Assembly: GCA_003993805.1 (NCBI GenBank)
Contig: RSEF01000012.1
Coordinates: 3,012,575 to 3,076,574, forward strand
Direction: 5' to 3'
DNA: 64,000 nucleotides
Source of the DNA: Himantopus leucocephalus
Taxonomy: Eukaryota; Chordata; Aves; Charadriiformes; Recurvirostridae
Shown here piece after piece: positions 1-64,000 of the stretch. A program made the translations under genes and the position numbers. Positions within the stretch are counted from its first letter, which is position 1. Each line of letters opens with the position of its first letter. The notes beneath the pieces are model-generated. The model was not told where the DNA came from, did no database searches, and worked only from the letters and a program-made list of their open reading frames with translations.

Positions 1-991
1 CACATAAAGAAGCCCTGTGTTATGTTGACAGAAGGCCCTTTAGTGGCCAATATATTTTAGGTATTAGACACTGCCTCAACATTAAGGGATTATGTCTCCA
101 TAGCTGGTTATTCACACTTCAGGATCAGCAGAGCACTGCAAAGCATGGTGAACGCAAACAAATAATAATCGTTTGGAAAATACAACTTTCAAAGTGTCCT
201 AAACCTGATGGCTCAACGTCCTGACAAAATATCTGTCCACCTAAATACAGCATACAAAGCTACCTATAAGCCACAGGCAGCATTAATTGTATTATCTCCT
301 ACTACTTGTAATCTCTTCCTGGGTGTAGGCTACTGACTCACAGATGGATTTTTGATGGTTTCTTTATCTTCTTATTTCATTGAAGGATTTTTATCTCTGC
401 TGTGAAATGTCAGCGCATTTGAGCACCAGCATAGAATTACTGCCTCCCACGCTAGTTAAAACTTGATACATTCATTCAAAAAAACCCAAGTTAGCAGTGA
501 ACCACATCTACACAAAAGCACTGCATATCAACAGCATTGTGTAAGAGCACACCAGCTGCTGTGGCTCAGCTGACAAGCTGCATTTTGTTAAGTGGCCGCA
601 GCCTGATGGCATTCTGTTGTGTTGGTACCCCAGCCCACCCAGACAATACGCCAGGGAAGGATCACTCCTGTTCTTATACACTTCCTCTAAGACTCTGCCT
701 GCAGAGCACTTTCAGATAGATTAGCAATTCTAAGGGGACTTTGATCTGATCAGTTTGGCAATTTTCATGGCTACTAATGCTGCTAAGCTAACTAAAACCT
801 ACTCAATTAGGAAAGATTGGCAGATACATGCTATGTTGCACTGTATCAGCTTAACAGGTGACCAGCTGTCTGTAACATTTTAATTAATGTTTACCAGTAC
901 AAAGGGTGAGCAGTTAGGCTGAGTAGTATTGATTTCTTTGCTGTGTTAAATGATAAAAAAGGGAAAAACCACCAAAACATAATCTGATCAC
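1..991 (-). other. TKT: TKT intron 12 (partial)
   Basis: No TKT exon 13 similarity and no repeat family recognised. The window edge cuts this intron. Confidence 0.8.
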
Positions 992-1085
992 CTTTTCTCA
1001 GCTGCTCTGCTGCAGCCAGAGCCTCATGCAGAGTGACTCCTGCTCCAATCACAGTCACTTGGTCATCCTTACTCTTCAGAACCAC
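992..1085 (-). CDS. TKT: TKT coding exon 12 (last TKT exon in window)
   Basis: 94 nt, residues 494-524, [20 protein letters not shown] through AAAEQLRK. The acceptor is TGCAG| and the phase-1 donor AAAAG|GTGATC. Exons 13 and 14 would lie left of the window. Confidence 0.94.
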
Positions 1086-10000: not shown

Positions 10001-13000
10001 GTTCAACTTCTATATTTTGTAGTGATTGCACCTTTATTGCAGCACTAGGTACATATTATTATATACACATGTATATGCAAAGCAATAGATGTTTTATTAC
10101 CTGATATGCCTTTGCCTTTAAAAGTCTTTGCAATGATAGCTGTTGGCTGATGTTTGGCCTGGCCAAAGGCTTTGCAAAGTTCCTCCACACTGTGTCCATC
10201 AACGATGATAGCATGCCAGCTAAGAACACAAACAGATCAACTCTTTCTAAAGGGTTTTAGCATGTGACACTCTCTGGTCGTTAACAATAACAATAACAAA
10301 TACTAACTTCATTCCAACGCAGTGTCTTTTTAAGAGACTCAAAGTATGCCAGAAACATGAACTAGCATTTGAGATCATAAAATATCATAGTCCCTTTTTT
10401 ATAACGCAAAATGAAACACAGAGGTAGTAACAGCTACTAGCAAAATTCACAGCCTACAGATACGTAAGTTCTTCTAGACTTCTTCAGACATAATAGCCAT
10501 TTTTAATCACAAGAGCAAATCAAACATCCAGAAATCAATTAAAAAAATGACAATGAAAGCTGATTAAAATAAAGAAAATGGCTGCTATTTTATCTGACAG
10601 TTTTTTATCATGGATTTTTGCATCTACATAGAAACATACATTTCTAAACTGAACGAAAGCCAATACACAAAGAATCCTCTTAGAAAGTAATGGTTTCCAT
10701 GCCCTTTTTTCTGATCTACTTGCTATGACTGCACATTTGGTCACACAAACAGTTATAAAATCTGTATTTAATGTGATAAAAACTGCTTTAAGATGCTCTA
10801 ACAAATTTATCTGAGTTAGCAGTCCTTTTATTTTTCCTCTAAACAGAAAATTCCGCCACTTTTAATATTCCTGCTGTACAAATAAAGATGACCAATATCA
10901 GGCATTAAGAAAGACCATCTTTCTTGGTGATGGTATCCTTTAGAGCTGAAAGCTCATTTGAAAAATTCTGAAAAGCAAATAATACATATAGTTTCAAATG
11001 GGAGACTGTACTGAACTTCTTCCAATCACATACCCAAAGGCTTCGCAGCGTTTCTGGTAAATTTCAACCCGATGCTGCAGAGGGGCAGGGTCACTTTGTC
11101 CAAGTCGGTTAATATCAAATATAGCAACCAGATTATCAAGCTTGTAAAACCCAGCAAAGGCCATTGCCTCCCAAACAGAGCCTTCAGATAACTCTCCATC
11201 TCCAAGCAGACAATACACTCGATAGCTAGAAGAAGAAATTAAAAAAAAATAGTTTGATGCGTAAGCCAAATTAAATCAAAAAGCAAACCCCCTCTAACAA
11301 TTCATAGTGAGAATTCACTGCTTTTTCTGTTCCAAACTCAACTCCCATTGCTTAGTGCATTCACCTTGGATAACCTTACACAACCTTAGACCAATTAAAT
11401 TAAAATACTTTTGAGCTGTTACACATGAAATAAACTAAGATTAGAAACACTGTACTCCTTTTCAAACCTTTGTCTCAGGAAAATCAGGTCTTAAGCCTCC
11501 TATTGCAAGGCTTGAATGAGCAGGCCCATTGAACACTGTCACTGTGACTCAGCAAGCTCACTAACAATGCGTGAAAGGCTACTGTCTGCTTCCTCATCTG
11601 CTTCCTCATTCTTACCGTATCCTCCCTGGAAGGAGGACCAATAATTTAATTTCAGGAAACTATAAATTGAGGATGAACTCAACTACAGATTAAAGTCTGC
11701 TGCATAACCGAATTCAGGAAAAAGACAACCAGCATGGTATGACTTTGTAGACTACTTCTCCAAACACTGAAGCTTTTTATTTAGGTAAAACTCAACTAGC
11801 AGTAGTACTGCCTAATCTCCGTGGAATTCAGCTGCTGTATTTTTCTTTTATTACCACTCTATTTTTTTGGATGACAAAGCTTTATAAATGTTTATTACCT
11901 ATTAAAATTAAAAAAAAAAAAATAGTGAATTAGCCTCCAAATACATAATTTTAAAACAAAATAATCAAGATGGCTGTTAGCAATTTTTTTTTTACTAGAC
12001 ATTAAGCTATAACAGACTTTTGATCTGAATCCCACCTGCCTTCAGCTAAATCTGAACCCCTTCCACATAAGCTGCTCCCCAGTACTCCATGCAAGCCCAC
12101 CTTTTTCTTATGTCATGTAAGCACTGGTTCGATTTTTTCCACACGTAGCATCTGCTAAACTCAATTAAAATCAGCAAGTCATCTTTCACAGAAATGATTT
12201 CAAGCTAGTGAAGTGTAGGACACATTAACTGGGCAGCCTATGCTCGAATGTACTAGAACTGTCACATAAAATACATCAACTACATCAGGCTATTTTCCTC
12301 CTCATACAGATTTGCCTTTAGACATCTATTTTTCTTGTCCACAAAACAAACGGCAGAAGCAGTCATGTTTGTCTCTATGGAGTCGAGTGCCTTTCTGATA
12401 ACATTTTGAAGCCCCACTTTATGATTCAATGCTGTTATTACTGACTGTAACAGTTCCTTATCCAGATACGTGTTCTCCATTATTTGTCATCTGACTTTGA
12501 ACAGGCACACCTCTAGTTTGCGTCTTCCTTCTAAGGGGATGCATACCAGTCTCAAAATGGCAATCAATTACTCTCTGGAAGTTAGAGGCTGCTCCAACAA
12601 CTGTCTTCTCTGTTCAGGAACATCACCCCGCAATGCTGTCAGGTTACAAAAGGAAGACACATATGCACTAATTCTTGCTAATCCTTAAATCCTTCGTAGT
12701 TTCCCCAGCAATGGCTTTGTAATTATCGGGCTAGCAATCTATCATTTAAAACCTGAATTTGAAATTAGATTTGAGAATGAAGAACAGAATAAAGGAGTTT
12801 TTTTCTTCCTTGATTTAGATAATAATATAATTTATTTTCACAAAATATTCCCACTGAACATCTATAATAATGAAATATGAAGATGGAATTACCTGGCTCT
12901 GTCAAAGAATTTGCCAGTGTATGCCATTCCACATGCAGCACCAAGACCCTGACCAAGGGATCCAGTAGCCACATCAGTGAATGCTTGTCTCTGGGAATTA

Positions 13001-16000: not shown

Positions 16001-19000
16001 GGCATCACGACTTGTTCAGGCCCCGTTGCACAGGCAGGGACTGGTAATGCAAGATTAATTTTCGCAGAAAGTTCTGGAACATTTAGAACTGTATAAGTAC
16101 CCTTAAAAAAAATATTTATTTTACTGTTAGAGTTGATAGAACTAGAATTCTGATTTCTAAGGAGGGCATTAATACAATTATTGCATTTCCTCTTATACTG
16201 AAACTGGACACATAAATTTACTGTCTCCAGTAAACACCCAGATACACATTGTAAAACACTAATTTGCTTAATCTTTGGCTAAGAAAGGAACCATATTTTT
16301 TTTACATTTACATCTGTATCAGTTTGAAATATCAAATTAGTTGGTGTATCAAATCTTTATAAGTATCTGGGATAGTTTCTCCCACTGAACTATCTGGCAT
16401 GACTTTTGCAACAATTTTCAACAGTAGCACAAATTAATACTTCAACTATAACTTAGAAATACACAGGCCCATTTCAGAAGCAACTATGCCATATAGTGTA
16501 GTTACCAACAAGCAAATATAGTTACATGAAAAGGGTTATTATCCAAGTGGCACATACTGAGTTATTCCAATACAAGCTATACATTTCATCTGAAGTGTAA
16601 CAGAAGGGCACACAGCTACTTTTATTTATCTATACTACTGTAATTTTAATAATGATCACTGTAGTTCTTATGCATCTTGAAGGAATGGCACTACTTGAGG
16701 GTATCAGCCTTGGCTTTTCACTTGCAGTAAAGCCTGAAATGGGTAAGAAGGCTTTTTAAAAACCTTTATTGAGTGTGGGAAGTAGCATTTTTCAGATTTT
16801 ACAGGTATAAATAGGATCAGTCTTTACATCAGTGGTTGCTACTGAAGCACAGGAAAGTGAATGATGAAGAGTAATAAGGTTATGGCTGCAGAAATCTGCA
16901 CCAGCTTTGAAGATAACCCTCAGTCTCATCTCAGTTTCTCTTCTACCAACGTTTATTTTTCATCTTTAAGATCATACTCTTAAAATATTTGACCCTACTT
17001 GTAAAACAGGACAAACTTACTATGAAAGTGTCACATTTCGTTTCCCGCATGTACATTTACCATGCATGTTAGGATTAGACAACACTTTCACTAGAACTTT
17101 AATCACAATATTCTCTTCGGGTAGTAATAAACCTTCCCTCCCAACATCCCAGTGCTGAAAAAAGAGAATAAGAACATGCAAAACACTAGCAAAATATGAA
17201 TTACGGTTAGTGTCCATCCCTTAGTAAGTACTCACGCACAGGGAACCAAAAGAATTAGCTTTAAACCGTGGTTCAAACATATTAGTAAATATTTATGTAT
17301 TTGAGTTAATCAATAAGCCTTACATGCTTGTTTAAAGCTTTCATTCCTTTAATTTTATTAACTTTATACTTAACCATACTTCTATGAACTCCTGGTCTTG
17401 GTAAAAAAAGTTTTAAACAACCTAAAATGGTAGCGTGTGGAAATAAAAAAAAAAAGGGTAGAAAAATTTAATAAATGACCTGAAAATTGGAAAAAAAATA
17501 ATCCTGTTAAAACCACAGGTTAATTAAATTACTTGCTACTAACAGAAGTCATCCAAAATTTAACTACATATCGGATATTAGAAATCATTCTAAAATTAAC
17601 TAGACAATTTTCTTTAAATATAAATCTTAATTACATCTTCTGGTCTTCTATTAACTCATACTTTTCTAACAAGTTCTGTCAAAAGAACTCCTTGTTAAGC
17701 CTAGCAAAGCGTATTACACTTCGTGTACAAGGGGAGAAAAAACCCACAGCCAGTCATCGCCGCTATTCTCACACAATCTTCCATATTTTGTTCCTGACTG
17801 ACGAACAACCTAGAACTTTGCGGTGATGGTCTGATTAACACACTTCTCTGCCAGATAGCTTCCACTGAAGAACTGCCTTATTTGAAATTATATTTGAAAT
17901 ATAGCCCTTCAGCTGGAAACCAAATTAAAGTATATTAGAACACTGAAATCCTGGATCCACATGAATCAAGAGTAAAATAATTACTCCAATGTAGTTTTGT
18001 GGGTTTTTTTTTTATTACTCTACATCAAAATTATCGCTTTCGACAACTACCTGAAAGGAGGTTGTAGACAGGTGGGGATCNAAATCCTGGATCCACATGA
18101 ATCAAGAGTAAAATAATTACTCCAACGTAGTTTTGTGGGGTTTTTTTTATTACTCTACATCAAAACTATCGCTTTCTACAACTACCTGAAAGGAGGTTGT
18201 AGACAGGTGGGGATCGATCTCTTCTCCCCAGTAACAAGCAATAGGACAAGAGGAAATGGCCTCAAGTTGCATCAGGAGACGTCTAGGATGGATATTAGGA
18301 GAAATTTCTTCACTGAAAGGGTTATTAAACATTGGAACAGGCTGCTCAGGGAAGTGGCGGAATCGCCATCCCTGGAGGTATTTAAAGGCAGGCAGATGCA
18401 GTGCCTAGGGACATGGTTTAGTGGTGGTTTTGGCAGTTTTAGGTTGATGGTTGGACTTGATGCTCTTAAAGGTCCCTTCCAACCTAGACGATTCTATGGT
18501 TCTATGAAAATTTGTATTAGCTCCATCTACGTATTTAAACTAAAAAGAACAGTGGTAGAATGTTAAAAAGGTATACTGAGTGAAAGAGAAAAGCTAAAAA
18601 ACTGAAAGAGAAAATAGTTGGCAGCAAGTGATCATACCACATGTGTCATGGTTTGGGCCACACAACACGTTATGAAATTCAACTGTCTCTTAAGAAACTC
18701 CTGAAACTTCCACTTTTAAGAATTTAACCACGTAATTCTAGGAAGTCAGGCACTGTTTAAAAACTGCAGAAATTTATCATTAGCTACAAAAGAGACTACC
18801 AGTTTTGATTAAAGCATCTGCACCACTTATCTAAAAGAAAAACTTCTTCCACACCCAAAAGCAAGTATGTTCAATCTTTACAACTAACTTAATCAAATTT
18901 TTCCCCACCTAAGGCATTTTAAGCACAATTTTTTTTCCAGTTCACTGAATTTTTCCAGTACAGCTGGTAAAGTACTCAAAGTTATATGTTTGAACATCTT

Positions 19001-21508
19001 CAGGATCAGACTACCTGATCTTTTAGTTCTTGTCGGCTCTTGTCCAGACAAAGGCTGCACTTTCTTTAACAAAAGTTAGTACAAGTAAATACTGCAAGAA
19101 CTGGTGTGTCACATCTACCACAGAACCACTTGTTCTGTTGCAATATATGCCATAGTTTACAGAAATTACTTCCTTGAATGAAGTAGGCAGGTCCTGTTTC
19201 GTTTGAAGTGCTTTTATTGCTAGTATTTCCTTCAGTTTTACAAACTACGCCTTTAACAAACACAAATTTCCCTAACAAGGTCAATTTTTTTTATTAACTG
19301 TAAGCTTCTATTTAAATTTAACTTGCATTCAAACACCCTTCTACATTCTTAGTGTATACCAGCAATTTAAGCAAAGCTTACTGTCTCATTCAGGTTTTGG
19401 AAAACACATTGATAACGTATAGTTGTTTTAGAAATTTATGTGATTTGCCTAACACTGCAACAGACTCTGAATGCCTTTTTCTTTTAGGCACATTATTACA
19501 CTATCATCTTGGTAACCAAACCTCATTAATTAAGAAAATATATGACTTGTTAACAGAATCTTCCCTCCAGAGCACATCTTTCGTAATCTACTCATTATCA
19601 GGTTGTGTAATAATTTCAGACTCTACACAACTCTAGTGCTTATTCTTATTCTTAAGCTAGAGTAATTAATGAAATACCTTTGTGCAAGAAGTAGTCAGTA
19701 TTGTAGCATACATGAACCAGGAATAAAAAGCTTGAGTAAAACTACTGTTTCTTCATCAGTATGGGGAAAACGGGTTTACTATTGAATTTCATGGACCACA
19801 GAAGAGAAGCAAAGGCCGTAGCATGATCCTTATTCTTAACAGCACATCAGACAAAACAGAGAAGTAATTTTATCTGTAAATAAATACCATACATCTCTAC
19901 AGCCTGCTTAAAATACACACTAGAAGCTCAAGACTGAAGCTCTCATTCTACTAAGTAGATTTAGCACAATTTTTCTTACCTACATTTTCACACAGGCTTG
20001 TGTAATACTGCCTGTACATTGTAGCCTTGAAAAAAATCAAGAATTAAAAGAGCGACTGTTGGGTATCCTGTGCTTCTCTCTTCAGACCGGACCAAACAAG
20101 CTACAGCTTTGTAAAAACCCACTCTTCTGGCTAGCCCAGAGGTTCCCAGTGTCCCAACACGCCGTTTTACAGGAAGAACCAAAGCAGCATTTCCATTTGC
20201 TGTATGCAAAAGGAACGAGTAAAGTTCAGTTTCTGTATGCTTTGAGAGAGAGCCATGTGAGGGGAGCCCATGCCAGGCACAGGGTGGAAAGCGTAAGGCA
20301 ATTCAAAGAAGAAGCTTTAAAACATTTTGCACACCACCTCTCTCCACACAAACCTCAGCANTTTTTTTTTTTTTTTTTTTAAAGCACTACAGCCAGTTTC
20401 AAAGAGGTCCAAGGGGAAAAATTGCAACAAGATGGGATATTAAAAAAAAGAAGAAAAAAGGCCAGCGTTCTGTATGGAAGCACTCAAATGTATTATTCAA
20501 GCAGAAAAAATGGCTTTAATTTTACATGACTAAAACCGGATTGTTTGCAGAGATTTTTTTCCATAGGTAAAGCACGATCAAAGGAAGGATAACCCTGGAA
20601 TCTGCACACATCAGAGCCCACACTAAATCCTGTCCAGAGGCCTGAATAAACTGCCCATTTGAGACCGCGGGCATTTCACAGATAATCCCACTTGGGCTCA
20701 CTTGAAATTCTGCGCAGAATTAGTTCCAACTGACGGGCACGAAATGAAAAAGAAACCGCTCGCGCCTCGGGCACAAATTCTTTGGTTTTCAGTCCTGCAT
20801 CAACTTAGCATTCCCGGCCTCTCTCCGCAGTCACAACACCCCCCCGGGCCCTGGCCACCGAGGTGGCCCCCGGCGGGGCGGCTGTCGCCCCCGGGCCGGG
20901 CCGGGCCGGGCGGCCTTTGGCGGCGGGAGCCCCACACCTCAGCCGCGCTCCTCACTCTCCGCCGCCATTTCCCGGCGGAGCACCTCCGCAGCAAGCGGCT
21001 TGGCGGGAAGACCCCGACGTGCCCGGGGGGCCCGGGGCGAGGGGGGGGAGGGCAATACAGGGAATTTGGCCGTGACCCCCGCGGTAACATCCCTCCCCAT
21101 CCCCGGGGCGGCCCACCGGCGGGAGGCAGCGATGGGCCCCCGGCATGGCCGGTGTTCCGCAGAGAGCGAGGGGTGGCGGGGCGCGGGATCTGCCCTGGGG
21201 AGGCACCGGTGTGTCCCCGGGCAGCGGGTAACGGGCTGAGGGAGCCCGGAGCTGCCCCTCCCAGCGCCACCCCGCCTCGGCCTCCCTGCTGAACGGATGG
21301 ATGGAGGAAGCCGGGAAGGGCGGGCGCCGCGTAGCCCGCGGGCGAACGGCGGGGCCGGTCCGCGGGCCAGGGCTGGGACGCAGCCCGCCTGCCTCACTCA
21401 CCCGGAGCCGGCCGCGGTCGTGGCTTTGATGGAGCTGATGCGGAGCCGGTTGGCCGTATCCTTCAGGGCCTGCAGGGTCTGCTGGTCGGGCTTGTGGTAA
21501 TCCTCCAT
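992..21508 (-). CDS. TKT: Transketolase, exons 1-12 of the gene (3' end off the left edge)
   Basis: Transketolase is the thiamine-diphosphate (ThDP) enzyme of the cytosolic non-oxidative pentose phosphate pathway. It moves two-carbon ketol units between sugar phosphates. Twelve coding exons join in frame: 21402-21508, 15430-15547, 13664-13777, 12893-12990, 11034-11225, 10101-10219, 8175-8368, 7419-7583, 6013-6169, 2711-2841, 1261-1344 and 992-1085. The sum is 1573 nt, or 524 codons plus one base. Residue numbers coincide with human TKT. His37, His77, His110, the GDGE ThDP/Mg motif at 154-157 with Asn185, His258, catalytic Glu366, His416, Asp424 and Arg474 are all present. The start [10 protein letters not shown] is the first in-frame ATG: the open frame upstream contains no other ATG. 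Residues from about 525 to the stop (623 in human) are missing because the window begins in intron 12. No disabling change was seen. One odd residue is Trp315, where human has Ile. The identification is essentially certain; the exon edges are read by eye. Confidence 0.97.
1261..1344 (-). CDS. TKT: TKT coding exon 11
   Basis: 84 nt, residues 466-493, [20 protein letters not shown] and on to GQAK. Arg474, a substrate phosphate-binding residue, is present. The acceptor is AACAG| and the donor AAAG|GTAAAT. Confidence 0.95.
1345..2710 (-). other. TKT: TKT intron 10
   Basis: Contains the single N and C16 tract at 1504-1520; nothing else recognised. The short open frames here look like chance. Confidence 0.85.
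1504..1520. other. Single N followed by a poly-C tract
   Basis: N at 1504, then 16 C residues, in TKT intron 10. Similar single N joins occur at 18081, 20361 (before 19 T) and 44426. Confidence 0.95.
2711..2841 (-). CDS. TKT: TKT coding exon 10
   Basis: 131 nt, residues 422-465. It reads [20 protein letters not shown], including Asp424, then [20 protein letters not shown]. The acceptor is TTTTAG| and the donor CCAAG|GTTTGC. Confidence 0.95.
2842..6012 (-). other. TKT: TKT intron 9
   Basis: AT-rich, with A13 near 3769 and a purine-rich stretch 3020-3130. No gene or repeat family seen. Confidence 0.85.
6013..6169 (-). CDS. TKT: TKT coding exon 9
   Basis: 157 nt, residues 370-422. It reads [20 protein letters not shown] and ends [10 protein letters not shown], which includes His416. 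The phase-1 donor is ATTG|GTAGGT. Confidence 0.95.
6170..7418 (-). other. TKT: TKT intron 8
   Basis: No supported feature. Confidence 0.85.
7419..7583 (-). CDS. TKT: TKT coding exon 8 (catalytic glutamate)
   Basis: 165 nt, residues 315-369. It holds [20 protein letters not shown] and IAEQNM, in which Glu366 is the residue that activates the ThDP aminopyrimidine. The first codon is TGG (Trp315) where human has Ile; the exon begins 18 bases from an assembly gap. The donor is ACATG|GTAACT. Confidence 0.93.
7584..8174 (-). other. TKT: TKT intron 7
   Basis: Holds the 31-base gap and poly-C tract next to exon 8; otherwise plain. Confidence 0.85.
7601..7631. other. Assembly gap (31 N) with adjacent poly-C
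   Basis: N run followed directly by 17 C residues (7632-7648), in TKT intron 7. Confidence 0.99.
8175..8368 (-). CDS. TKT: TKT coding exon 7
   Basis: 194 nt, residues 250-314. It begins [20 protein letters not shown], with His258 of the active site, and runs through the less conserved linker to YKVGEK before the central (Pyr) domain. The donor is AAAAG|GTACTC. Confidence 0.95.
8369..10100 (-). other. TKT: TKT intron 6
   Basis: No supported feature beyond AT-rich unique sequence. Confidence 0.85.
10101..10219 (-). CDS. TKT: TKT coding exon 6
   Basis: 119 nt, residues 210-250. It reads [20 protein letters not shown] and then KTFKGKGIS. The acceptor is CTTAG| and the donor ATCAG|GTAATA, with phases that match exons 5 and 7. 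Confidence 0.95.
10220..11033 (-). other. TKT: TKT intron 5
   Basis: No supported feature. Confidence 0.85.
11034..11225 (-). CDS. TKT: TKT coding exon 5 (ThDP motif)
   Basis: 192 nt, residues 146-210. It contains [15 protein letters not shown] and, 28 residues after the aspartate, [13 protein letters not shown]. This is the GDG-to-N signature that binds Mg2+ and the ThDP diphosphate (Asp155 and Asn185 in human numbering). The donor is GG|GTATGT. Confidence 0.96.
11226..12892 (-). other. TKT: TKT intron 4
   Basis: Contains the ARE-type site at 11545-11554 and an open-frame-rich minus-strand stretch at about 12280-12750 (see findings). No retroelement recognised. Confidence 0.85.
11545..11554 (+). 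promoter_or_regulatory. Antioxidant response element / MARE-type site in TKT intron 4
   Basis: TGACTCAGCA fits the ARE core TGACnnnGC and half of the Maf recognition element exactly. Mammalian TKT is a known NRF2 target, which makes the site plausible. A 9-10 base motif will also occur by chance. Confidence 0.35.
12893..12990 (-). CDS. TKT: TKT coding exon 4
   Basis: 98 nt, residues 114-146 (last codon split). It includes [16 protein letters not shown], the glycine-rich stretch near the cofactor pyrophosphate. The acceptor is CCCAG| and the donor GCCAG|GTAATT. Confidence 0.95.
12991..13663 (-). other. TKT: TKT intron 3
   Basis: No supported feature. Confidence 0.85.
13664..13777 (-). CDS. 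TKT: TKT coding exon 3
   Basis: 114 nt, residues 76-113, beginning [16 protein letters not shown] and ending EGHPVP. It holds His77 and His110 of the active site. The donor is CCA|GTGAGT and both ends are phase 0. Confidence 0.95.
13778..15429 (-). other. TKT: TKT intron 2
   Basis: Contains the CR1 tail at 14203-14272 and a 20-base palindrome at 14270-14289; the rest is unremarkable. Confidence 0.85.
14203..14272 (-). mobile_element. CR1 LINE, 3' terminal fragment
   Basis: The plus strand reads tandem GGAATCAC units then AGTTGGAAGGGACCTCTAGA and GATCATCTAGTCCAAC. This is the reverse complement of the CR1 3' end, so the element points along the minus strand, in sense with TKT. It is a severely 5'-truncated copy in intron 2. 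The terminal octamer is ATTCCGTG rather than ATTCTATG. Confidence 0.9.
15430..15547 (-). CDS. TKT: TKT coding exon 2
   Basis: 118 nt, residues 37-75, beginning [12 protein letters not shown]. It holds His37, which contacts the substrate in the human enzyme. The acceptor is TTGTAG| and the donor TCAAAG|GTAAAA. Confidence 0.95.
17946..18215. repeat. Near-identical tandem copies separated by one N (likely assembly overlap)
   Basis: 17946-18080 (135 nt) and 18082-18215 (134 nt) are the same sequence apart from about three substitutions and a homopolymer length change. A single N at 18081 joins them. The second copy continues into the CR1 element; the first stops at the N. Both begin AAATCCTGGATCCACATGAA. 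Confidence 0.85.
18170..18506 (+). mobile_element. CR1 LINE, 5'-truncated copy
   Basis: The copy starts near CTACAACTACCTGAAAGGAG and contains ATTGGAACAGGCTGCTCAGG and CATCCCTGGAGGTATTTAAA. It ends with GGTCCCTTCCAACCTAGACG and ATTCTATGGTTCTATGA. It is antisense to TKT in intron 1. The 143-codon open frame through it encodes [20 protein letters not shown], a product often mistaken for a gene in bird genomes. Confidence 0.93.
20894..20912 (+). promoter_or_regulatory. G-quadruplex-type run, GGGCC repeats, in intron 1
   Basis: CCCGGGCCGGGCCGGGCCGGG: four G runs with CC loops, inside the CpG island just downstream of TKT exon 1 in the transcribed direction. Confidence 0.5.
21402..21508 (-). CDS. 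TKT: TKT coding exon 1 (start codon exon)
   Basis: The ATG is at 21508-21506 on the minus strand and is followed by [20 protein letters not shown]. The exon ends after 107 nt at GG|GTGAGT in codon 36 (phase 2). The context CCCATGG has the favourable G at +4 but a C at -3. It sits inside the CpG island. Confidence 0.95.
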
Positions 21509-21543
21509 GGGGGCGACGCAGGAGGGCGGCGGCGGTGGCACCT

Positions 21544-21567
21544 GGGGCTGGGCTGGGCTGGGCTGGG
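21544..21567 (+). promoter_or_regulatory. G-quadruplex-type run upstream of the TKT start codon
   Basis: Five G runs separated by CT (GGGGCTGGGCTGGGCTGGGCTGGG) lie about 36 bases upstream of the ATG. They are on the template strand of TKT, so the mRNA carries the C-rich complement. Confidence 0.6.
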
Positions 21568-21645
21568 CTGGCGGCGCTCCGCGAGGGCTGTGGACAGCGC
21601 GCCGCAGCCGGGCCGTGCGGTGAGGGGGGAGAGAGAGAGAGCGAG

Positions 21646-21663
21646 CGGGCGGGCGGGCGGGCG
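21646..21663 (+). promoter_or_regulatory. Second G-quadruplex-type run, (CGGG)n
   Basis: Four GGG runs with single-C loops follow a short GA repeat. This lies in the same template-strand orientation upstream of TKT exon 1. Confidence 0.55.
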
Positions 21664-21911
21664 CCCCGCCTCCCGCCTGTGCCGGCCCGGCCGCGCACAC
21701 CGCCGCCGCCGCCCGCAGCAGGGGAGGGGCGGGGCGGGCCCGGCTCGGCGGGGCCGACAGCGCCCCCTGTCGGCGCCAGGAGGCGTCTGCGGGCGCCCGC
21801 CGGCGCCGTTGGCGCCATTTCCCCTCCCCGCCCGGCCGCTGGTGAGAGGGGGCGGCGCGGCGGCCCCTCACAGCCCGGGGCGGTAAGCGGGGGCGGCCCT
21901 GAGGGCAGCGG

Positions 21912-22202
21912 NNNNNNNNNNNNNNNNNNNNNNNNNNNNNNNNNNNNNNNNNNNNNNNNNNNNNNNNNNNNNNNNNNNNNNNNNNNNNNNNNNNNNNNNN
22001 NNNNNNNNNNNNNNNNNNNNNNNNNNNNNNNNNNNNNNNNNNNNNNNNNNNNNNNNNNNNNNNNNNNNNNNNNNNNNNNNNNNNNNNNNNNNNNNNNNNN
22101 NNNNNNNNNNNNNNNNNNNNNNNNNNNNNNNNNNNNNNNNNNNNNNNNNNNNNNNNNNNNNNNNNNNNNNNNNNNNNNNNNNNNNNNNNNNNNNNNNNNN
22201 NN
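21912..22202. other. Assembly gap (291 N) in the TKT promoter region
   Basis: The N run interrupts the CpG island on its upstream side. The TKT transcription start or proximal promoter elements may be missing here. Confidence 0.99.
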
Positions 22203-25200
22203 AGAGTTTAAACAGACAACAACAGCAAAAAAAATCCAAATACTTCAGCTCTTGCTCACAAAACCTGGTATCCCTGCACTGCACTCTCCGTGTATTTTGG
22301 CTGTTCTGTCCCCTGGTAGTTTGTCCTGAAAGCTGTATTATATGACAATATATTTTGTATTATTGTTTTTTTTTATATTTTAATATATATCATGACTAAT
22401 ATTTAAAAAATGTTTTAAATGCAAACTGTTACATCTAGTGAACTATCACTATCATTATCTAATTTCAGAAGACAAGAGTGAGGCATACCATTTAACATTA
22501 AAAAACCTACACTTTTGCCTTCAAGACTGAAGACTTCGGGTTTCAGAAACAAAGGAAACAACCTGTATTTACAAAGTATCCATGCTCACTCCACAAGTTG
22601 CAGCTAGAAAGTGACATGTGAAACCCTTAGCAAGGTAAGATAAAACTTTCTTCCATAAACTAACCACTTTGTTGGAAGAAATAAAAGCAGACACCGTTCC
22701 TTTAGCTTAAGTGTTTTCTTAAACTGCTCCATCAGTTGTCTTTTCAAAAATCCTTTTATTAAAAAGACCTCAGAAGAAAAACTAGACTGGAAACAGGCTA
22801 TATGCCAGGAAGAAGGGAAAAACAGAGCCAAACAACCAAACTTGACAGTAGCAAAGTGCAGAGTTCACTTTAGCAAGCACTATACAAAGGTTAGTTGCTG
22901 CAACTGCCATTTGCTATACTCCACTCTGTATTCTACTTTAAAGTAATTAGGTAGGCCAAGTACTTTATTTTCTTTTTGCAGAAGCAGAACCAGTTACAGA
23001 TCATTTAATTTCAGTAATACACTTTGAAGTGATATGGACTGTAAAATTGGGATATGGAAGAGCCTGATGAGAATTGCGTAAGCCTTGGTTTAAATTTAGG
23101 AACTCTGAAGATGTGGCCTATAATGCCAAGAAGCTTCCAATGGCAGAGCAACGCCACCTTAGAGCAGAGAGCCAAGAACTGAAGTAGTTAATGTACTTCA
23201 AGGGTCATTGTGCAGATCTGCTACTGTCTCAAGGTACAGAAAGACATGTCATATACCCTGTAATGGGCTATGTCTAAACAGCTACTTAAAAATTAAATAA
23301 TACTTGATAGCTTGAAATTAGGTAGTTGTGTAGGAAATCACATCAAGGAGAGCCTAGCTGAGGAAACATAGAAAAAGGACTGCCAGACATGGTGGAAGCA
23401 ATCAACAGCCATTCTTAGTAGCACTTTCCCCACAATATTCCTGTTGACGTCCACTTTGGTTCAACAATACATGGACTTCTTTTATCCTCCTGGAGCTATG
23501 ATGCCCAAAGGAATATGGTCAGTAGGGGGACTATGAAAGGTCTCAAGAGTTACAGTAGCATCTACAAGAGAATTACTGATTTAGGGCTCCTCCTTTTCAG
23601 ATTTTCAACTATCAAACCTACCTTAACTATTGGAGAAGTAACAACAATTCAAACTTTAAGTTCCCCATAAAAGATCCTTAACTGAGCCTTATACTTGCTA
23701 TATACCAGCAAATGTCTTGCCAGAGATCTGGCTGTGCCATAGCATCAAATAGGCCTAAAACTCAGTCTAATCTTGTAGAGTGAGGGTTACCAACCTCTGC
23801 AAGCAAGTTACACGGCTTTCCTTCTTCTCCTTTGTCCTTTCTTGCATCCTTTCCACTACCTCTTAGCCTTTCTCAAGGCAACATCACATTTGATTCTGTC
23901 TGCAGCCATATGGTCGGAAGGTAAGTCTAAAGTAGCTTGAGCCAGAAGTACAGTCAAATCTGGTGATCATCCTTGCTTACTGTGCTTTGGCTTGCCCTGC
24001 AGAGCAGTCTCAGAGCTCATTAACTGGATTCCTTTCAAATAAAGATGAAACAGAAGATTCCGTCTGAGAAAGCAGCTAATACGCCCCAGCCATTAATGAG
24101 CATTCAGTCCAACAGGACTAACAAGAGCTAGTCTGGAGCAGAATTCAAAAAACACATGTAGTGTGGATGTTGAGTCTTCAGCGCAGTCTCATGCGCTCTA
24201 TAGACCTGCTATACTGGAATCTCCTACCTGCTAATATAGATGGAGCCAGAGAAGCAAGTTGCTAGCACAGAAGCATTTATTAGCTTGAGCTGTGATCCAT
24301 GCTTACTAACGAAGAGCAGTTGTTAACATACTAGCTGTGCTAGGGAGTGAATAGCATTTTTTTTCCTCTCACACCTGCTGTTTAAACGCTGTTCTTTAGA
24401 CAGATGTTGACAGCTGGCTCAACCATCATCTCAGTGACATGGATAACTTCATGGCAGTTAAGCGAGGTTAGGCAAGATAACTTGGTCTACCCTAATCTGT
24501 GGTTTAGAAGAGGTGCATTAAGTAAATTCAAATGAGGCCAAGCATAAGTGAAATAATGGCTATGATACCAAACTCCACAGTATTCAGTGTTGACTGAAGA
24601 TACATTAAGAAAACATGGCTGTACACCCTTCCAATTTCAGCTGCAGACAGTAAGTTTGCAAAAACTTCAAAAACACCTTTGCATCAGGAAACAAAAAGCT
24701 TGTTTTAGAGATATGGGTACTTCATCCTTCTGGATGGCTAGTAGTATCTATAAACACAGTAGAAAAATATCATAATGGAAACAGGCATCATGGGAACAAT
24801 CAAACCAGTAATTTCTACACTATGTTTTTTGCTTCTAATAGATTCATTTACTCCATGTTTCATGTATATATAGTGCGATTAAGACGAAAGCATTGCCAGG
24901 CTGTTACTGTTTCTCTCTGCATATATCATAGGTAGTGACAAAGTGAGATAACACTCAACTAAAATAAAGTTCAGTCACTCCCTGCTCCTTAGTCAACATC
25001 CTTCGTTTTCCCTCACGGTTCTTTTAAATATACACTGACTAGATCATAGCCTCAATTTTACTGGCTTTATTATTCATTCTTTGGCTGAAGAGTAAGGCCT
25101 GTGATCAAGTCTCTGTGATTACAGTGAAGATGTGCCCTTGAATCTTCATTTTAAGGATGGGTCCTTCACAAACTGTCTCCCACGTGTACTGCAGCAGTAG

Positions 25201-56600: not shown

Positions 56601-57359
56601 TGCATGACATCTCTAGGAGCCCTTGGAACTACAAAACAAAAGCAAGTGACATGGCAGCTTTACAAACCAACTTTATCTCCAAAGGGGGGGAAAAAGGAAA
56701 GACAGAAAAAAAAATAAAAATCAAACAATCCAGAAATTAGCAGCAGCAAGTTCCTATTATTTCATAGTTTTGCCTGCTCTCTAACATCACTTCAATTCTA
56801 TAAGATTCCACCTACTTCTCCCACTATTCTCCATTCGCTTCACTTTAGTCAGGAATAATAACTAAGCCTTAAAAAAAAAAAAAACAACCCCACAAACCCA
56901 AACAAAAAAACAGCCCACCACCAAAAAAACCCCACAAAACCAACTAAAAAACATGGCCATCATTTATTTAATTACACTTTCTGCATCAGTGGATCTTTTG
57001 CCAGCATCCCTATACAAAACAAAATATAAAATAAACAGTGTTTGCATGTGCTTTCTTTGGAGAATGCCAACTAATACTTCAACTGATTTTTTTACCGCTT
57101 AACTAAAAATTTTAATTTTTTTTTTTTTAAAAAACAAAACCAACATTTTGATTACTAAAAAAACTGGTACCAGCAAGAATGTTGTATCTTTCTATTTAAG
57201 GAGAGTGAGAAAAAACCCAAACACATTTAATAGGTTCATTTTTTTTTTCTGTATTGCATAAAAGAATTACAGAATAAGACCACAGTACTTACTTAGCCAT
57301 GAGTTTTGCTATTCGATGACAGTCATTCTTGTCGTAAAACCAGATACTGTAAATTGACA
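35607..57359 (-). CDS. DCP1A: mRNA-decapping enzyme 1A, C-terminal seven coding exons (5' exons off the right edge)
   Basis: DCP1A is the DCP2 cofactor that promotes mRNA cap removal in cytoplasmic P-bodies. Seven exons join in frame: 57293-57359, 50846-50984, 46428-46547, 41763-42518, 39427-39492, 37301-37519 and 35607-35687 with the TAA stop. Together they give about 481 residues, matching human DCP1A from about residue 103 to its end at 582. The first exon encodes the end of the EVH1 domain (SIYSIWFYDKNDCHRIAKLM, with the Trp near human 108). The long middle is low-complexity Gln/Ser/Pro linker with two conserved short motifs: HLTLEELFGTS, and VDLLQKLRLTPQHDQ in the large exon. The last two exons encode the trimerisation helix region (SQLQEALIHLIK, then HEVYLQVLTK). 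About 100 N-terminal residues are missing. The paralogue DCP1B is less likely, given the match to the DCP1A-specific C terminus and the TKT neighbour. Confidence 0.96.
35688..37300 (-). other. DCP1A: DCP1A last intron
   Basis: No supported feature. Its first codons read on from the weak donor for 20 residues before a stop at 37238-37240. Confidence 0.85.
37301..37519 (-). CDS. DCP1A: DCP1A penultimate exon (start of trimerisation domain)
   Basis: 219 nt (73 codons), VAPPQFVTTTTTVTPSILLS through LSRSQLQEALIHLIK. The end matches human SKSQLQDTLIHLIK, the first part of the C-terminal trimerisation region. The acceptor is TTACAG|. The donor AAG|GTCCTG is weak beyond the invariant GT. Confidence 0.94.
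37520..39426 (-). other. DCP1A: DCP1A intron
   Basis: AT-rich unique sequence; no repeat family or gene recognised. Confidence 0.85.
39427..39492 (-). CDS. DCP1A: DCP1A small exon
   Basis: 66 nt (22 codons), TVQQNKESEVFPQQKTLSKA and SQ, matching the human QQNQDPEVF segment. The acceptor is CTTAG| and the donor CAA|GTAAGT, both phase 0. Confidence 0.9.
39493..41762 (-). other. DCP1A: DCP1A intron
   Basis: Contains an 87-codon plus-strand open frame at 40304-40567 without recognisable family or splice context. Nothing else seen. Confidence 0.85.
41763..42518 (-). CDS. DCP1A: DCP1A large central exon
   Basis: 756 nt (252 codons). It begins SRQKHLTLEELFGTSVPKEQ, a conserved DCP1 motif, and runs through a disordered Ser/Thr/Pro/Gln-rich linker. 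It then has SVDLLQKLRLTPQHDQMQQQ and a GQLATPESF block, ending ISPLQ at the donor CAG|GTATTC. The acceptor is ATTTCAG|. It aligns colinearly with the human linker although much of it has drifted. Confidence 0.95.
43088..43137. repeat. (TG/TA)n microsatellite, interrupted
   Basis: GTATGTATATATAT, a 13-base interruption, then GTGTGTGTATATATACACACAC, in a DCP1A intron. The second half is self-complementary. Confidence 0.85.
45605..45655. repeat. (TA)n/(GA)n microsatellite between 14-base direct repeats
   Basis: ATATATATATA, TGTGTATATATATACATA and GAGAGAG tracts. The direct repeat TTCCTGTGGTTCAA lies at 45592-45605 and 45656-45669. Confidence 0.85.
46428..46547 (-). CDS. DCP1A: DCP1A linker exon
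   Basis: 120 nt (40 codons), NQISDLSIISSSGMQQNANP through QVQDP. It is weakly conserved and Ser/Gln/Pro rich, as in the family. The acceptor is TTCTGG...CCCAG|AATCAG in the sense strand, the donor is CCG|GTATGT, and both ends are phase 0. Confidence 0.9.
46548..50845 (-). other. DCP1A: DCP1A intron
   Basis: Begins in the sense direction with the long U-rich tract at 50781-50834. Otherwise no supported feature. A 152-codon plus-strand frame at 49026-49484 is judged to be chance. Confidence 0.85.
50781..50834 (+). repeat. Polypurine A/G tract
   Basis: Long A runs broken by single G residues. In the DCP1A transcript this is an almost pure U/C tract beginning about 11 nt downstream of the exon donor at 50845. 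Confidence 0.9.
50846..50984 (-). CDS. DCP1A: DCP1A exon with the PIDILEML motif
   Basis: 139 nt, beginning VVEQEAQRSQQ and ending RPIDILEMLSKAKDEYER. It closely matches human DCP1A just after the EVH1 domain. The donor CGA|GTAAGG is followed by a long U-rich tract in the transcript. Confidence 0.95.
50985..57292 (-). other. DCP1A: DCP1A intron
   Basis: About 6.3 kb. It holds the A/C-rich tract at 56871-56952. No exon or repeat family recognised. Confidence 0.82.
56871..56952 (+). repeat. A/C-rich low-complexity tract
   Basis: A14 followed by ACAACCCCACAAACCCAAAC-type sequence. In the DCP1A sense strand it is T-rich with GGG and GGGG runs, about 340-420 nt downstream of the exon at 57293-57359. 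Confidence 0.8.
57293..57359 (-). CDS. DCP1A: DCP1A exon encoding the end of the EVH1 domain
   Basis: 67 nt, SIYSIWFYDKNDCHRIAKLM plus A, split codons at both ends. The acceptor is TTCAAG| and the donor GCTAA|GTAAGT. The split codon joins the next exon to give a Lys before VVEQE. Confidence 0.93.
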
Positions 57360-60300
57360 CTTGAAAATAAGAAAAAGGCATGTGTAAGACAAAGGTTAAA
57401 AAAGAAATCAAATCAACAGAAAAAAAAAAGCAGAAAACCAGCAGTCCATTAGATCTGCAATATACGAATTGCCATCAATTTCCATTCAATATTCTGTGTG
57501 CTACTGACTGCTATTTATAATCAGAAGTAGCACATGTGCAAACACAAATACAACTTCAGACAGATTAAATACAAGAACTTCAAAACATTGGTACTGTTTG
57601 TAAATTAAAGTGGCAGGAAAATGAAGTTTTAACTACCAGATTTCTTCTCACTACAGTTGCAACCTCCTGTTTTGAATTACTGACTTTACTATTTAAACTA
57701 GTCTACAGAATATCCTTTTTTTTTTTAAAAAAACCCACTTATTTTTAAATTTTTCCATTTTTGAAGCTCAACAAAAATACTGAAGTTTGAATTACAGTAT
57801 GACGATTCGGTCAGAGGCTCTCTAGAAGGTTCCCTCTCCAAATTCTTTTTGTAAGAGAAGTAATTGTATAGGAAAGAAGCAGTACTAAAGCTTCAATCTT
57901 ACTGTCACATTCATGGAGCAGCTTAAAACTGGATTCCCATTGAACCCTACTCTTCGCAGGTATCAAGGACAAAGCAAGAAGGGCAAAAGGGTTCCAGCTC
58001 AGCAAGACACTAAGCCCCATTCTGGCTTTCAGAATAAGTAAAATTCCACTGAAAATTGGCAGACGTAGAGCCTGACCACCGAGCTGAAAGATACTCCATC
58101 TGAGAGCGAAACTTTGTCAGTAGTACCATGTACTATTTCTTCATCAGCAATCCCACTTCAAAGAAGCCATTTTTACCCACACGCATGCTCATCTCCTCAC
58201 TGTCCCTTCCCACAGTTGCACCAACACAACAAATCTGAAGAACTCTTTTCAGAATTGTATTTAATCCAGCCCACAAAGCAGGTTATTTTAAATTTTGGTT
58301 CACCTATGAAGTTTGTCAATACATGATGTCCAACTACATCAAAGGCAGTTGGACACTATGCATATTACCATTAAAATATTTTCATTTCTGAAAAGACACT
58401 TTTAGCCTTTTAAAAATCATCTTTACATTGCAGTTCATGCCAAAGTTTTTATGAAGTTGAAATCACTAACCAATTATAAAAATATGACTTGAAGTGATGG
58501 AAAAGAATGTGTTTTTTTAAACAGCCTTTTCCAGACAGATGCAGTTTTTTATTTAAAAGTGAAACTCTTTCCTCCCCTCCCCCCACTTTTTTTTTTTCCC
58601 CCCCACCTCAAAACACTCAAATCTCAACCACAGTCCACTCAGAATTATTTCAAGCCATGGCAAAGAGGAACAATTATTTATCAACCTTTTTTTTTCTTCC
58701 TAGATCTGCCAGTTATCCTAGGCTTACTGTGTTGGACCAAACCCCTCAAAAAGTCATGCCCACACCTCTTTTCTATAACAATATCTTAAGACAAACTGAA
58801 TTTCTACTTTGCTTCTTTTTAAAAAATTTTATTAAATAACAACCATATCCATTTGGGTGTTTGTTTCTTCAGAGGTTACAGCTTAAGTAACAGACAACAA
58901 AGCTTTTCAATTCCTAAACAAAGAAATCAATACAGCATAAATTTAAGGAATTTTCTTCTTACAAAAGACATAAGCCAATAAAAAAAGTCATTTCATACAT
59001 GTAGTCAATGCTTATGAAATACTTATTAATATTTACAGTTTAATACAACTGGATTGTCTACTGCATAGAAACCTGAAAATGTTTCCAGTCTGAGCTATTA
59101 CTTTAGTCATGTACCATATTTTAACACTAAAGGAAACTCTTTCCCTTCCCTGACTCCATTATCAGACAAACTGCCAAGAGAAGAAAGCTTCTTCAAAAGC
59201 ATACTTGCTGAAGAAATGAAGATAAGGAACCTATAATGATATCTTAATGGGACAAATGATAAAAGTCACACTCAATTCTGCCAGAAACAGGCCTACACAA
59301 GACCAGAAGTAGATCCAAATCTCAGTATGGTGTACAGAGTATCAGGCTTTTTTCCACTTTGTACTACTGGCAAGCAATCACAGGGAGCCACTGCAAAACA
59401 TTAACAGTATTACAAGGATGTAAAGCAGATTATGAGCAAGTAAACTCGGGCATGAACTCAGATATGGTACAACAGGCTGGAATGTTTCCCTTCTTCTTTT
59501 CAAAAGAGGACTCGTTTGTACTATCAGTTCAGCTCCCATGCCCCAGAAGCGTGTGTGTATGTCCCAACTGCATTACTATATTTGATACACTTCATATATG
59601 CAGGCAACTTTAGCTATGATCATCCTTTAAACATCATTAAAAACCAGAGTTGGTACTTACCAGTTCTTTTCAAATCTGTCATCTTTTTACTACACCCAGC
59701 ATAAACATTAGCTGAATGTTCATACGTCTAATGGCATGTCTTTCTACTGCAATTCTTTTAAGAGTTTCATCCAACAGAAATCACTAAATTAAGTGACTCA
59801 TTCTTCCACCTAGTTCAACACTTTCCATCCAGCTTTTCTCCACTGAATGCTGGGCAGCATCTTTAGCATTCAAGTAGAAGTAGTTTGCAATCATCAGGAG
59901 CAATATCTTTCAGCTGGATTCACACTACATTTTGACACACATGAAGTCACAAATAACCATATCACAGACAAAACAAATTTCATAAAATTAAAGTAAGTCA
60001 TCAGTTATCTTCATCTACATTCTTCTTAGACATCGTCATTTTTATTAAAAACACTGAACCGCAAATATTTATCTAAACACACAACACTCAACTTCTCTCC
60101 AAACTTGACTGGATCAATCATTAAAACTTTACTGAAACTGCCACAGGAGAAGAGAGATTTTTCAGAAAACAAAAGCATTATGGAAGTCTTCCTGCTCAAG
60201 TCTAACAGCTGGATTACACCAAAAGGAAGGTCTTACTCTCTTCTACATTGTGTTCCCATTGCTTCGTGGGGCAGTCAGCAGTTCCAATGCTGCCCAGTTA

Positions 60301-62006
60301 GCAGATGTGGATTAAGAGTGGGGATAGCAAAGCACCACAGTGAGACACAGAGGCCTCACTCTTTGGCAACATAAAATGAAGTTGCATCCCAAAGCTGTAG
60401 TTTCACTTCAATTTTCCATTAACTCATTCTACCCCAATTCACTCCTGTCCCTGACGTCAGCCGGATACATTTTAGTCCAGACCTGTTCCTTAATACTGCT
60501 TGCGCGTCAGCTTCACAAACATGCCATCTAGCACAACAGAGAGGGCAGAAACAAGAAGCTGGGGGCAGCACAAGGCGGCAAAACCATTAAAATGTTCATG
60601 AAACTGTAGCCTGAGAATGCTATGCTGGAAGAAGTGTACACGGGACTTATCAGCACTGCCAGTTTCGGAGATTCCAGATGCTACTCTCCTGCCTTAGGCA
60701 ATTTAGCCATCTGTGCAGATACAGCTTCATGTCATTCAAAAAGATGATCTGTTTCGAAGTTACCTTAACTAGTTGGAAGAGCTGATAGAGGACAGAGAAA
60801 GTTCCAATTTAGATGTTGCTACACAATGAAGCAGAACTCAGAGTGGGGCACAGTTACCTTTCAAACTCTCTTTGGAAAGACTTGTATTTTGACACCCATC
60901 CCATAAGGTAATAATGGAAATCAACACAATCTCACTCCCCTAAAGCAAAGCACATACATGCATCATTTTACACTTCAAATAGAGTTTAAGGTATAATGCA
61001 ATAAGCACATAAAGCAATCTCTCTCAAAGCTCCTATTTCTTCCAGTAGCAAGGTTAGCTGAAATGCCACCTCTCCTCAGTCACTCTGCTCCAATATCTTC
61101 TTCACTGAGATTCCTCATTCACTATTCATTTTTTCCCTCAATTTAAACATTAGCCTGCCACACAGATTTATAAATCATTAGAATTAATTAAAAAAGAGTC
61201 CCTCCCCTTTCTTATTGTTTTGAATATCTAAGGCCATTTCACAAATACAGTTCGCAGCACAATCCCACAAGCAGTTGCATTGGAGTAATTTGGCAGGTGA
61301 CAAACAGCATCTGAGATCAGGAACACTTTAACAAACTGCCATCTGACAAAGCATAGCGTGGAACCAGAGGGATTACTACTTTGCAACACTGAACCAGAGT
61401 GGAAAACCCCTTCCAGTTAGAGTGCTATCTTTCAGGTCAAACAAAATATTTTTAGACCTTCTTAACAGCTTTCAATGGTTCCTCCCCTCCCCCTAGCTTG
61501 CACTGCTGCTTCTGCTATAAAGGTATCAAGAACAGGCTCCTTCCTTATCTCAGACTAAACGACTGGGTTAATGCGCTTGCTGGAGAGCCATTCAGCTTCG
61601 GCAATCACAGAAACGCATTACACTTAATGCATTGCCAGCCAGGAGCAAAGGTGATAACGAGAGACTTTCCTTACCAGTAAAGATGCCCTGTTTTGAAACC
61701 AGTCAGGAGCTCTTTCAAAGAATTTTGGAAGCCATTTGAAATAATGCAACTCATTTTGCTTTTGCTGTTCTGAATACAAGTTTAATGATAATATATCAAG
61801 ACCAGAAGAATGCACTTTGTAACTGAGCTTTACACTTAAATGTATAAACCTCTCCAAAAATCCATTATTTTTGTTTTATTAACTCTTACCCTTGGACAGA
61901 AATAAGAAGTAAGCAAGAAAAAAAAAAACCCAACCAAAAACGCCACAGCAAACAAGGACTATTTATTTTGATACCCAAGTTTTATCCTTAGCATCTGTCT
62001 TTTCAG

Positions 62007-62149
62007 GACCATGGAAATCAACCTGCCTGACCTCCCAAATGAACTAGCTTGGATTAAAAAGCCTTTTAATCAAGACCAACGCCACCGATACAGAGGGAAA
62101 GTTATAAATGAGAAAGGCTTAGAAGAATACTTCTTGCAGACTTTAAGAG
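62007..62149 (+). CDS. Nested gene, first coding exon
   Basis: The exon starts at 62007 after TTTTCAG. The ATG is at 62011 and 46 codons plus one base follow to the donor AGAG|GTAAGATGG. The peptide includes NELAWIKKPFNQDQRHRYRG and EEYFLQTLR. Charged, aromatic and hydrophobic residues are mixed in the manner of real coding sequence, unlike the flanking AT-rich intron. Confidence 0.62.
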
Positions 62150-63361
62150 GTAAGATGGCCATTGTTTAAAACTTTGACTAGTTATACTCTATTATTAAGC
62201 AAACTATATCAACTATCAGCTTCAAGTTCTCACATTATAGACTGAGAGAAAGGACTGAACTTTCAGATTGGGCTGTTATTATTGCTCCTGGCAGAACTGT
62301 ATGCATTTTTTTTAAACAGTCTAACATAATTGTCACAAAATACAGACAAGAGGAAACAAATTTAGGTTCATTAAAAAAAATAAAATAGGTCAATGGGTTT
62401 CAGTGCTTCATGAACAAATACTCTGAATACTATAAAGAATGTGCATGCATCCAGAGGGAGTTAGACAGGGATCAGCTGTACCTGGCAACACATATTCCAG
62501 ATTAAGCAATAATAAATAGCACATTAAGTATGAAGTATAATCTAAAAAAATTCTACCTTTTAAGAGGAATCCTAAATTAAAAATATTGTACATTACGGAA
62601 ATTAAAAGAAATTGACCTAATTTCTTGATTTGTTCACATCCAGAGATATTTGCTTTCTTTAATTCTAACAATGAAAAGTAGAATACCTTCTTTTTTTTTT
62701 ATTTATCACAGTAACTGGTATAATGTTTCACAGCTTCTTAGTCATACCCCCTGTCATTTTTGCTGTATGACCTGATGCATCGTGAATAAATGGTGTAAGT
62801 TTTCAGGCAGCATTATATACAACTTTCAAAGTAGACAAAGCTTTTTTCACAATTTTTGGGTTTAAGTATGCTTTTGGGGCTTGAACTGTATTATGTAGCC
62901 AGAATGATTCTGAGAAAAAGAAGTCTGGAGTTGGGAAACATTTCCCCATTAATAGCTAAATTATTAAAAAGGTATTATTTTCACGGGGGTAGAAGCCTCT
63001 ACATGCCTTACATCTAACCAGAATAACGAATAACAAATTGACCCAATTGTCTTCCGTTTCATTCAGTGAACACAACAAAAGGTAGATATAAGAAAGGTAC
63101 CGCATCGCTTGGTCTATTCTCCTTCCAGAATACCCATGGAAGACTCCTTCATATCCCATCCTGCAAAAACAGGGGAACCCCTCCCCAACAACTATGAAAG
63201 ATAAGTCAGGCCTCCTTTCCTGTGAGAATAACATGGCAATTACCTACTCTTGTTCTACGTATGAAAAAGCCTTTGTGCAATTGGATAGAGGATCTCATGT
63301 CTACAGTGTAACAAAATTAAGTTCTGATACACAGCAAACTAAGAATTCCATTGTGTATTAA
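62007..63361 (+). CDS. Unrecognised two-exon gene nested antisense in a DCP1A intron
   Basis: Two plus-strand exons, 62007-62149 and 63129-63361, join in phase to a predicted 123-residue protein. The first has a pyrimidine-rich acceptor (CTGTCTTTTCAG|), a strong start context (GACCATGG, ATG at 62011) and donor AGAG|GTAAGA in phase 1. The second has acceptor TCTCCTTCCAG|, completes codon 47 and stays open for 76 codons to TAA at 63359-63361. The product begins MEINLPDLPNELAW, is basic, polar and rich in Tyr, Ser, Thr and Lys, and has YPWKTPSYP at about residues 48-56. I see no signal peptide or membrane segment. I do not recognise the family. Short Tyr/Pro/Trp motifs of this style occur in small ciliary or sperm microtubule-associated proteins, but that is only a guess. 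The four bases between acceptor and ATG imply an upstream non-coding 5' exon that I could not place. A further exon between these two is possible. Confidence 0.6.
63129..63361 (+). CDS. Nested gene, terminal coding exon
   Basis: The acceptor CTATTCTCCTTCCAG| lies immediately before 63129. The reading frame set by the first exon gives YPWKTPSYPILQKQGNPSPT and later TYEKAFVQLDRGSHVYSV, then TAA at 63359. An internal donor-like CCT|GTGAGA at about 63221 offers an alternative splice. Confidence 0.55.
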
Positions 63362-63881
63362 AAATAAGTATTTGAACAAATCAAACTCTAAAAGAATGGT
63401 AAAACCCACCAAAAATATTATGACCTAGCCTGACCAGCAAATCATTCAGTACAGCCTCCAGCCAAGCAAAAATAATATCTATATACTCCTTGCAAAGTTT
63501 TTCATGTAACTTATTAGCAGCTCTGCATAGACTGGAGTACATCACTTGATATAGTCAGAACAGTTCTCATGCCATTTAAGACAGAAATGCCAGAGGTCTG
63601 ATCTGGTATACATAAGAAGATAATGAGGGCAGCCTGTTAAGTCAAGACAGAATCCCAGAACAAAGTGAAAACATGAAGTTTATAAAACAGTAGTCAACAA
63701 TCTTTATAACTGAATATGATACATGGAACCTTCCCCGAATATGTGGTGGTATAATTTTGCTTTCATCATATACTATTTCTACCATGCCCTGGGAAAGCGT
63801 AAACCACGATTTGCCATTGATCCTGCTACAACCTAAATATATAGGCACAAAAGATGTTTGTCTCTGCCAAATAGCAGTATT

Positions 63882-63887
63882 AATAAA
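63882..63887 (+). terminator. Candidate poly(A) signal for the nested gene
   Basis: AATAAA lies about 520 bases after the predicted stop codon and is the first canonical hexamer I saw downstream on the plus strand. It could equally be a chance match in AT-rich DNA. Confidence 0.3.
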
Positions 63888-64000
63888 CATGATTTTAGTT
63901 TTTTATCAGGTAGTCTGAACCATTCCCCATCCATAAGCTAAGGAAACAGAATCATCAGTTCAATCATTCAGCAGCGTTAGCAGGACAAACTTACTCTTAA

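Follow-up and report, generated by a model that had tools for sequence, protein, structure and literature searches.

A candidate antisense transcript with a labile 3' exon inside an intron of DCP1A in Himantopus leucocephalus

We report that a 64,000-nucleotide stretch of the Himantopus leucocephalus genome (contig RSEF01000012.1; hereafter the window) carries, inside an intron of DCP1A and on the strand opposite to it, two exon-like segments that join into an open frame of 123 codons, and that this frame is broken over the second exon in both relatives available for comparison. Our favoured reading, held tentatively and with somewhat less than even confidence, is that exon 1 supplies a short reading frame to an antisense transcript whose 3' exon is labile and whose 123-residue product is not conserved. 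Specifically, a plus-strand transcript antisense to DCP1A would be spliced from exon 1 (62007-62149) to a second exon at about 63.07-63.13 kb, and the exon-1 frame would be the sole reading frame of this transcript common to the relatives found. The join of exons 1 and 2 would encode, in at least one of the relatives, a peptide of approximately 49 residues (ending ...LREYP before a stop), while in this lineage TGG in place of TGA, together with other indels in exon 2, may have produced the 123-residue product, which looks lineage-specific. Since the 3' exon drifts, such a transcript would be an antisense RNA, non-coding or of micropeptide type, or else it would belong to a gene that is losing or remodelling its C-terminus.

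The initial annotation of the window had described two plus-strand exons with a strong ATG context, a GTAAGA donor and agreeing phases, and all of these features were reproduced. Exon 1 (62007..62149) has its ATG at 62011 in the context ACCATGG and holds codons 1-46 plus one base; it is followed, after 62149, by the donor AGAG/GTAAGA (the slash marking the predicted junction). The putative intron (62150..63128; GTAAGA...CCTTCCAG) closes with the acceptor TTCTCCTTCCAG/AA before 63129, and exon 2 extends to the stop (63129..63361), such that the join is phase 1 to phase 1 and runs for 123 codons to TAA at 63359-63361.

Splice sites were scored with simple weight tables, and acceptor-ATG-donor-acceptor-stop structures were enumerated on both strands of the window, with at least 123 codons, the first ATG no more than 60 bases from the acceptor, an intron of 80-5000 bases and a last exon of 200 bases or more. 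On neither strand does any other such structure reach the site scores of the candidate, and relaxed scores added one more exon 1, on the minus strand at 21.8 kb in a GC-rich island. An equal structure at the candidate's site scores occurred in one of 150 dinucleotide-shuffled windows (mean 0.0067), a figure that is optimistic because the thresholds were taken from the candidate itself; with relaxed scores the mean was 0.093 structures per shuffled window (8% of 150). Pure chance is probably not the sole source of the exon pair.

The host gene was mapped by tblastn with a human DCP1A sequence, which placed DCP1A exons on the minus strand at 35.6-57.4 kb of the window, and 40 kb of DNA past the window was added for mapping the remaining exons. 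Exon 4, which lies within the minus-strand tblastn match at 57295..57399 (acceptor approximate), borders the host intron, and exons 3, 2 and 1 lie on the minus strand in the DNA beyond the window (66773-66645, 68582-68541 and 69706-69572, respectively, in extended coordinates). As exons 3 and 4 flank the candidate, it is antisense within intron 3-4, and its position wholly between these exons bears out the nesting first proposed. A search of the genome (1.1085 Gb, 316 contigs) scored nine places, and the candidate matched this locus alone, as two exons; moreover, the stretch 61000-64000 has no second copy anywhere else in the window. We also observed a second DCP1-type gene in the same genome, probably DCP1B (G000:C1:75223055-75226891; L009, L011), where the candidate had no match. 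Elsewhere in the window, minus-strand exons at 894-11275, downstream of DCP1A, are taken to be transketolase (TKT)-like (named from the translated frames), and a plus-strand open frame at 18117-18563 resembles the terminal part of an avian CR1 element, which fits a bird genome. The GC-rich, CpG-island-like stretch at 20600-22400, in which 291 consecutive bases (21912-22202) are N, is perhaps the TKT promoter. Between 57500 and 64000 Rfam gave 0 matches at the gathering score, that is, no known structured RNA.

Searches of a protein database gave 0 relatives for the spliced 123-residue query, two proteins (P0001 and P0002) for the stop-to-stop frame of exon 2, and nine clusters (P0003-P0011) for exon 1. 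All carry the label 'lgn', which we take to denote assembled public reads. None of the nine exon-1 relatives spans the proposed junction; all continue into the intron (RGK...) and therefore look genomic rather than spliced, and these searches yielded no protein match crossing the junction. Pattern matches in viral contigs (6 and 4) included 0 confirmed homologues.

The exon-1 frame is common to all nine clusters. As P0003 and P0006 do not differ within the exon, these represent eight distinct sequences, and they are 72-96% identical to the window over 46 codons. Two clusters have a one-codon deletion, and a frame shift was seen in 0 of 9. All 10 rows have residues compatible with the GT donor (GK), and all four rows that extend to the first acceptor are compatible with it as well. 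Because these relatives were found as open frames, the missing stops are no evidence of selection, and truncated or shifted copies would escape notice. Variable columns number 21/46 in exon 1, 2/8 upstream and 3/4 after the donor codons, and variability in the exon is not below that of the flanks (21/46 vs 5/12 for both flanks, Fisher p = 1; p = 0.34 against the 3' flank alone). The core from W14 to Y40 has 9/27 variable columns vs 12/19 in the remaining exon, a split that was picked post hoc, after inspection of the data.

For exon 2, a frame-tolerant alignment of the window with P0001 and P0002, the only two relatives seen for this frame, gave a different picture from the stable 123-residue protein that had been proposed, and does not support that proposal. 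P0001 enters exon 2 in frame 2 and finishes in the frame of the window; P0002 enters in frame 1, crosses the window's frame and then departs again. Both have indels of lengths not divisible by three around 63180-63191, ahead of MKDKSGLL, and P0002 alone has a further one after SCS near 63258. The frame is kept in neither relative, which is not the pattern of a conserved protein gene. Moreover, the W50 codon of the window (TGG, 63137..63139) would correspond, as deduced from residues and alignment, to TGA in P0001, since the residues MK over 63136 force it, and in P0002 to TGA or, should P0002 encode its histidine otherwise than by the window's CAT, to CGA. With TGA at codon 50 the proposed splice product of P0001 would end after 49 residues. 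Over 72 columns, counting gaps, P0001 is 62.5% identical to the window in the claimed frame, and over 17 columns read out of frame the figure is 71%; P0002 differs at 2/28 residues in the intron reading just before exon 2 and at 2/24 in the claimed frame, so that nothing in the latter comparison marks the claimed frame as constrained. The initial annotation had named frame-breaking indels in close relatives, combined with a lack of spliced plus-strand reads, as grounds for giving up the gene; such indels are present in P0001 and P0002 and, if these are close relatives, cover one half of that statement.

Other joins were also considered. A second acceptor before 63067 would extend exon 2 upstream (63067..63128, plus strand) and join the phase-1 donor, giving an 89-residue product in the window; in P0002 the frame from this acceptor point runs 85 codons. 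As the ends differ between the window and P0002, this join does not rescue a stable protein. Among 11 acceptors other than 63129 that score at least 4 up to 66640, read in phase 1, it alone gives more than 19 codons (43). We ruled out that the 5' indels of exon 2 are masked by an internal acceptor, the scores there being no higher than 0.0.

Close behind our favoured reading ranks an origin without any coding function, which we regard as unlikely though appreciable: chance open frames would lie over splice-like intronic sites, possibly inside a non-coding antisense RNA. This would account for the frame conflict in exon 2 and for a variability of exon 1 that does not fall below that of its flanks, and openness as such is common, the masked window holding 45 other open 77-codon segments. 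It sits less well with the rarity of the structure in shuffled windows and with nine exon-1 relatives that share one frame and differ by one-codon indels only. Codon scores, which were computed with human codon usage against a non-coding set from which the TKT side and the DCP1A exons were masked, also lie in the upper tail of the non-coding segments: exon 1 was equalled or exceeded by 23/308 open 46-codon segments and exon 2 by 2/45 open 77-codon segments of the masked window. The candidate's scores (-0.05 and -0.10) fall within the range of three DCP1A exons (-0.19 to 0.17). They favour coding mildly, and of the earlier statement that the composition looks coding this mild lean is what stands.

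A further reading, which we consider improbable, is a decaying older protein gene (a unitary pseudogene) in which exon 2 has deteriorated more than exon 1. In the window and in both relatives, these having been found as open frames, exon 2 has long open stretches; the window and P0001 share the ending of its frame (SIVY) in spite of internal indels, and both exons score as mildly coding-like, but Pfam, the solved structures and the protein database yielded no intact ancestor. It is likewise a slim chance that the locus is an unannotated micropeptide gene of many birds or sauropsids, in which a functional exon-1 peptide (core KPFNQDQ..YRGKVINEKDLEEY) would end about three residues into exon 2, and in which stop loss and indels would here have added about 74 residues, a C-terminal extension in progress. 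Least probable is a functional 123-residue protein as first read, with P0001 and P0002 from lineages that lost it: the window offers 123 open codons, good sites, a strong ATG context and mildly coding-like codons, against which stand the broken frame in both exon-2 relatives and the identities of P0001 and P0002 given above. What endures of the gene originally described is the exon pair, its antisense nesting, the exon-1 frame and the slight codon preference; the stable protein is not supported.

The suggestion of a link to small ciliary or sperm proteins found no backing. No Pfam family matched the 123-residue product or the 89-residue alternative. Matches that we rejected were FBD (Pfam) for one of the ten exon-1 rows (E = 0.095, not credible) and, as best solved-structure matches at chance level, a phosphatidylinositol phosphodiesterase and a phycobilisome degradation protein (E = 0.37 and 0.41, respectively); the alternative product had 0 solved-structure matches up to E = 10. 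Human CFAP141, used as a positive control, matched 7ung, 8j07, 8otz, 8i7r and others among the solved structures, although the candidate gave no sequence link to a known axonemal microtubule inner protein there or in Pfam. One strict X-box pattern had 0 matches in the window, which is a weak indicator. A structure model of exon 1 reached a mean pLDDT of 62.6, too low for a fold search. In the literature, four peptide strings from the candidate were without any match, DCP1A was absent among the matches listed for nested genes, and searches on nested or antisense transcripts of DCP1A matched through 'DCP1A-as' only, in papers that are unrelated by their titles and the start of their abstracts.

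If exon 1 is translated, a small gene within DCP1A has been missed by annotations, and the locus would show a protein end altered by stop-codon and indel differences. If it is not, the locus shows how persuasive a two-exon frame can be until other species are compared.

Three known systems offer a comparison. Small axonemal microtubule inner proteins (SPMIP, CIMIP and CFAP) resemble the candidate in that it is short and has a YPWKTPSYP-type stretch, an impression of the initial annotation, but differ in that it lacks a credible match in Pfam or to a solved structure. Genes nested antisense in introns share with it the position wholly within a host intron on the opposite strand; in contrast, neither exon-2 relative retains its 123-residue product, and its transcription is predicted. 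Finally, the candidate, whose expression is putative, has in common with antisense lncRNAs carrying short translated frames the splice-like exons, a short one-exon frame and a drifting 3' exon.
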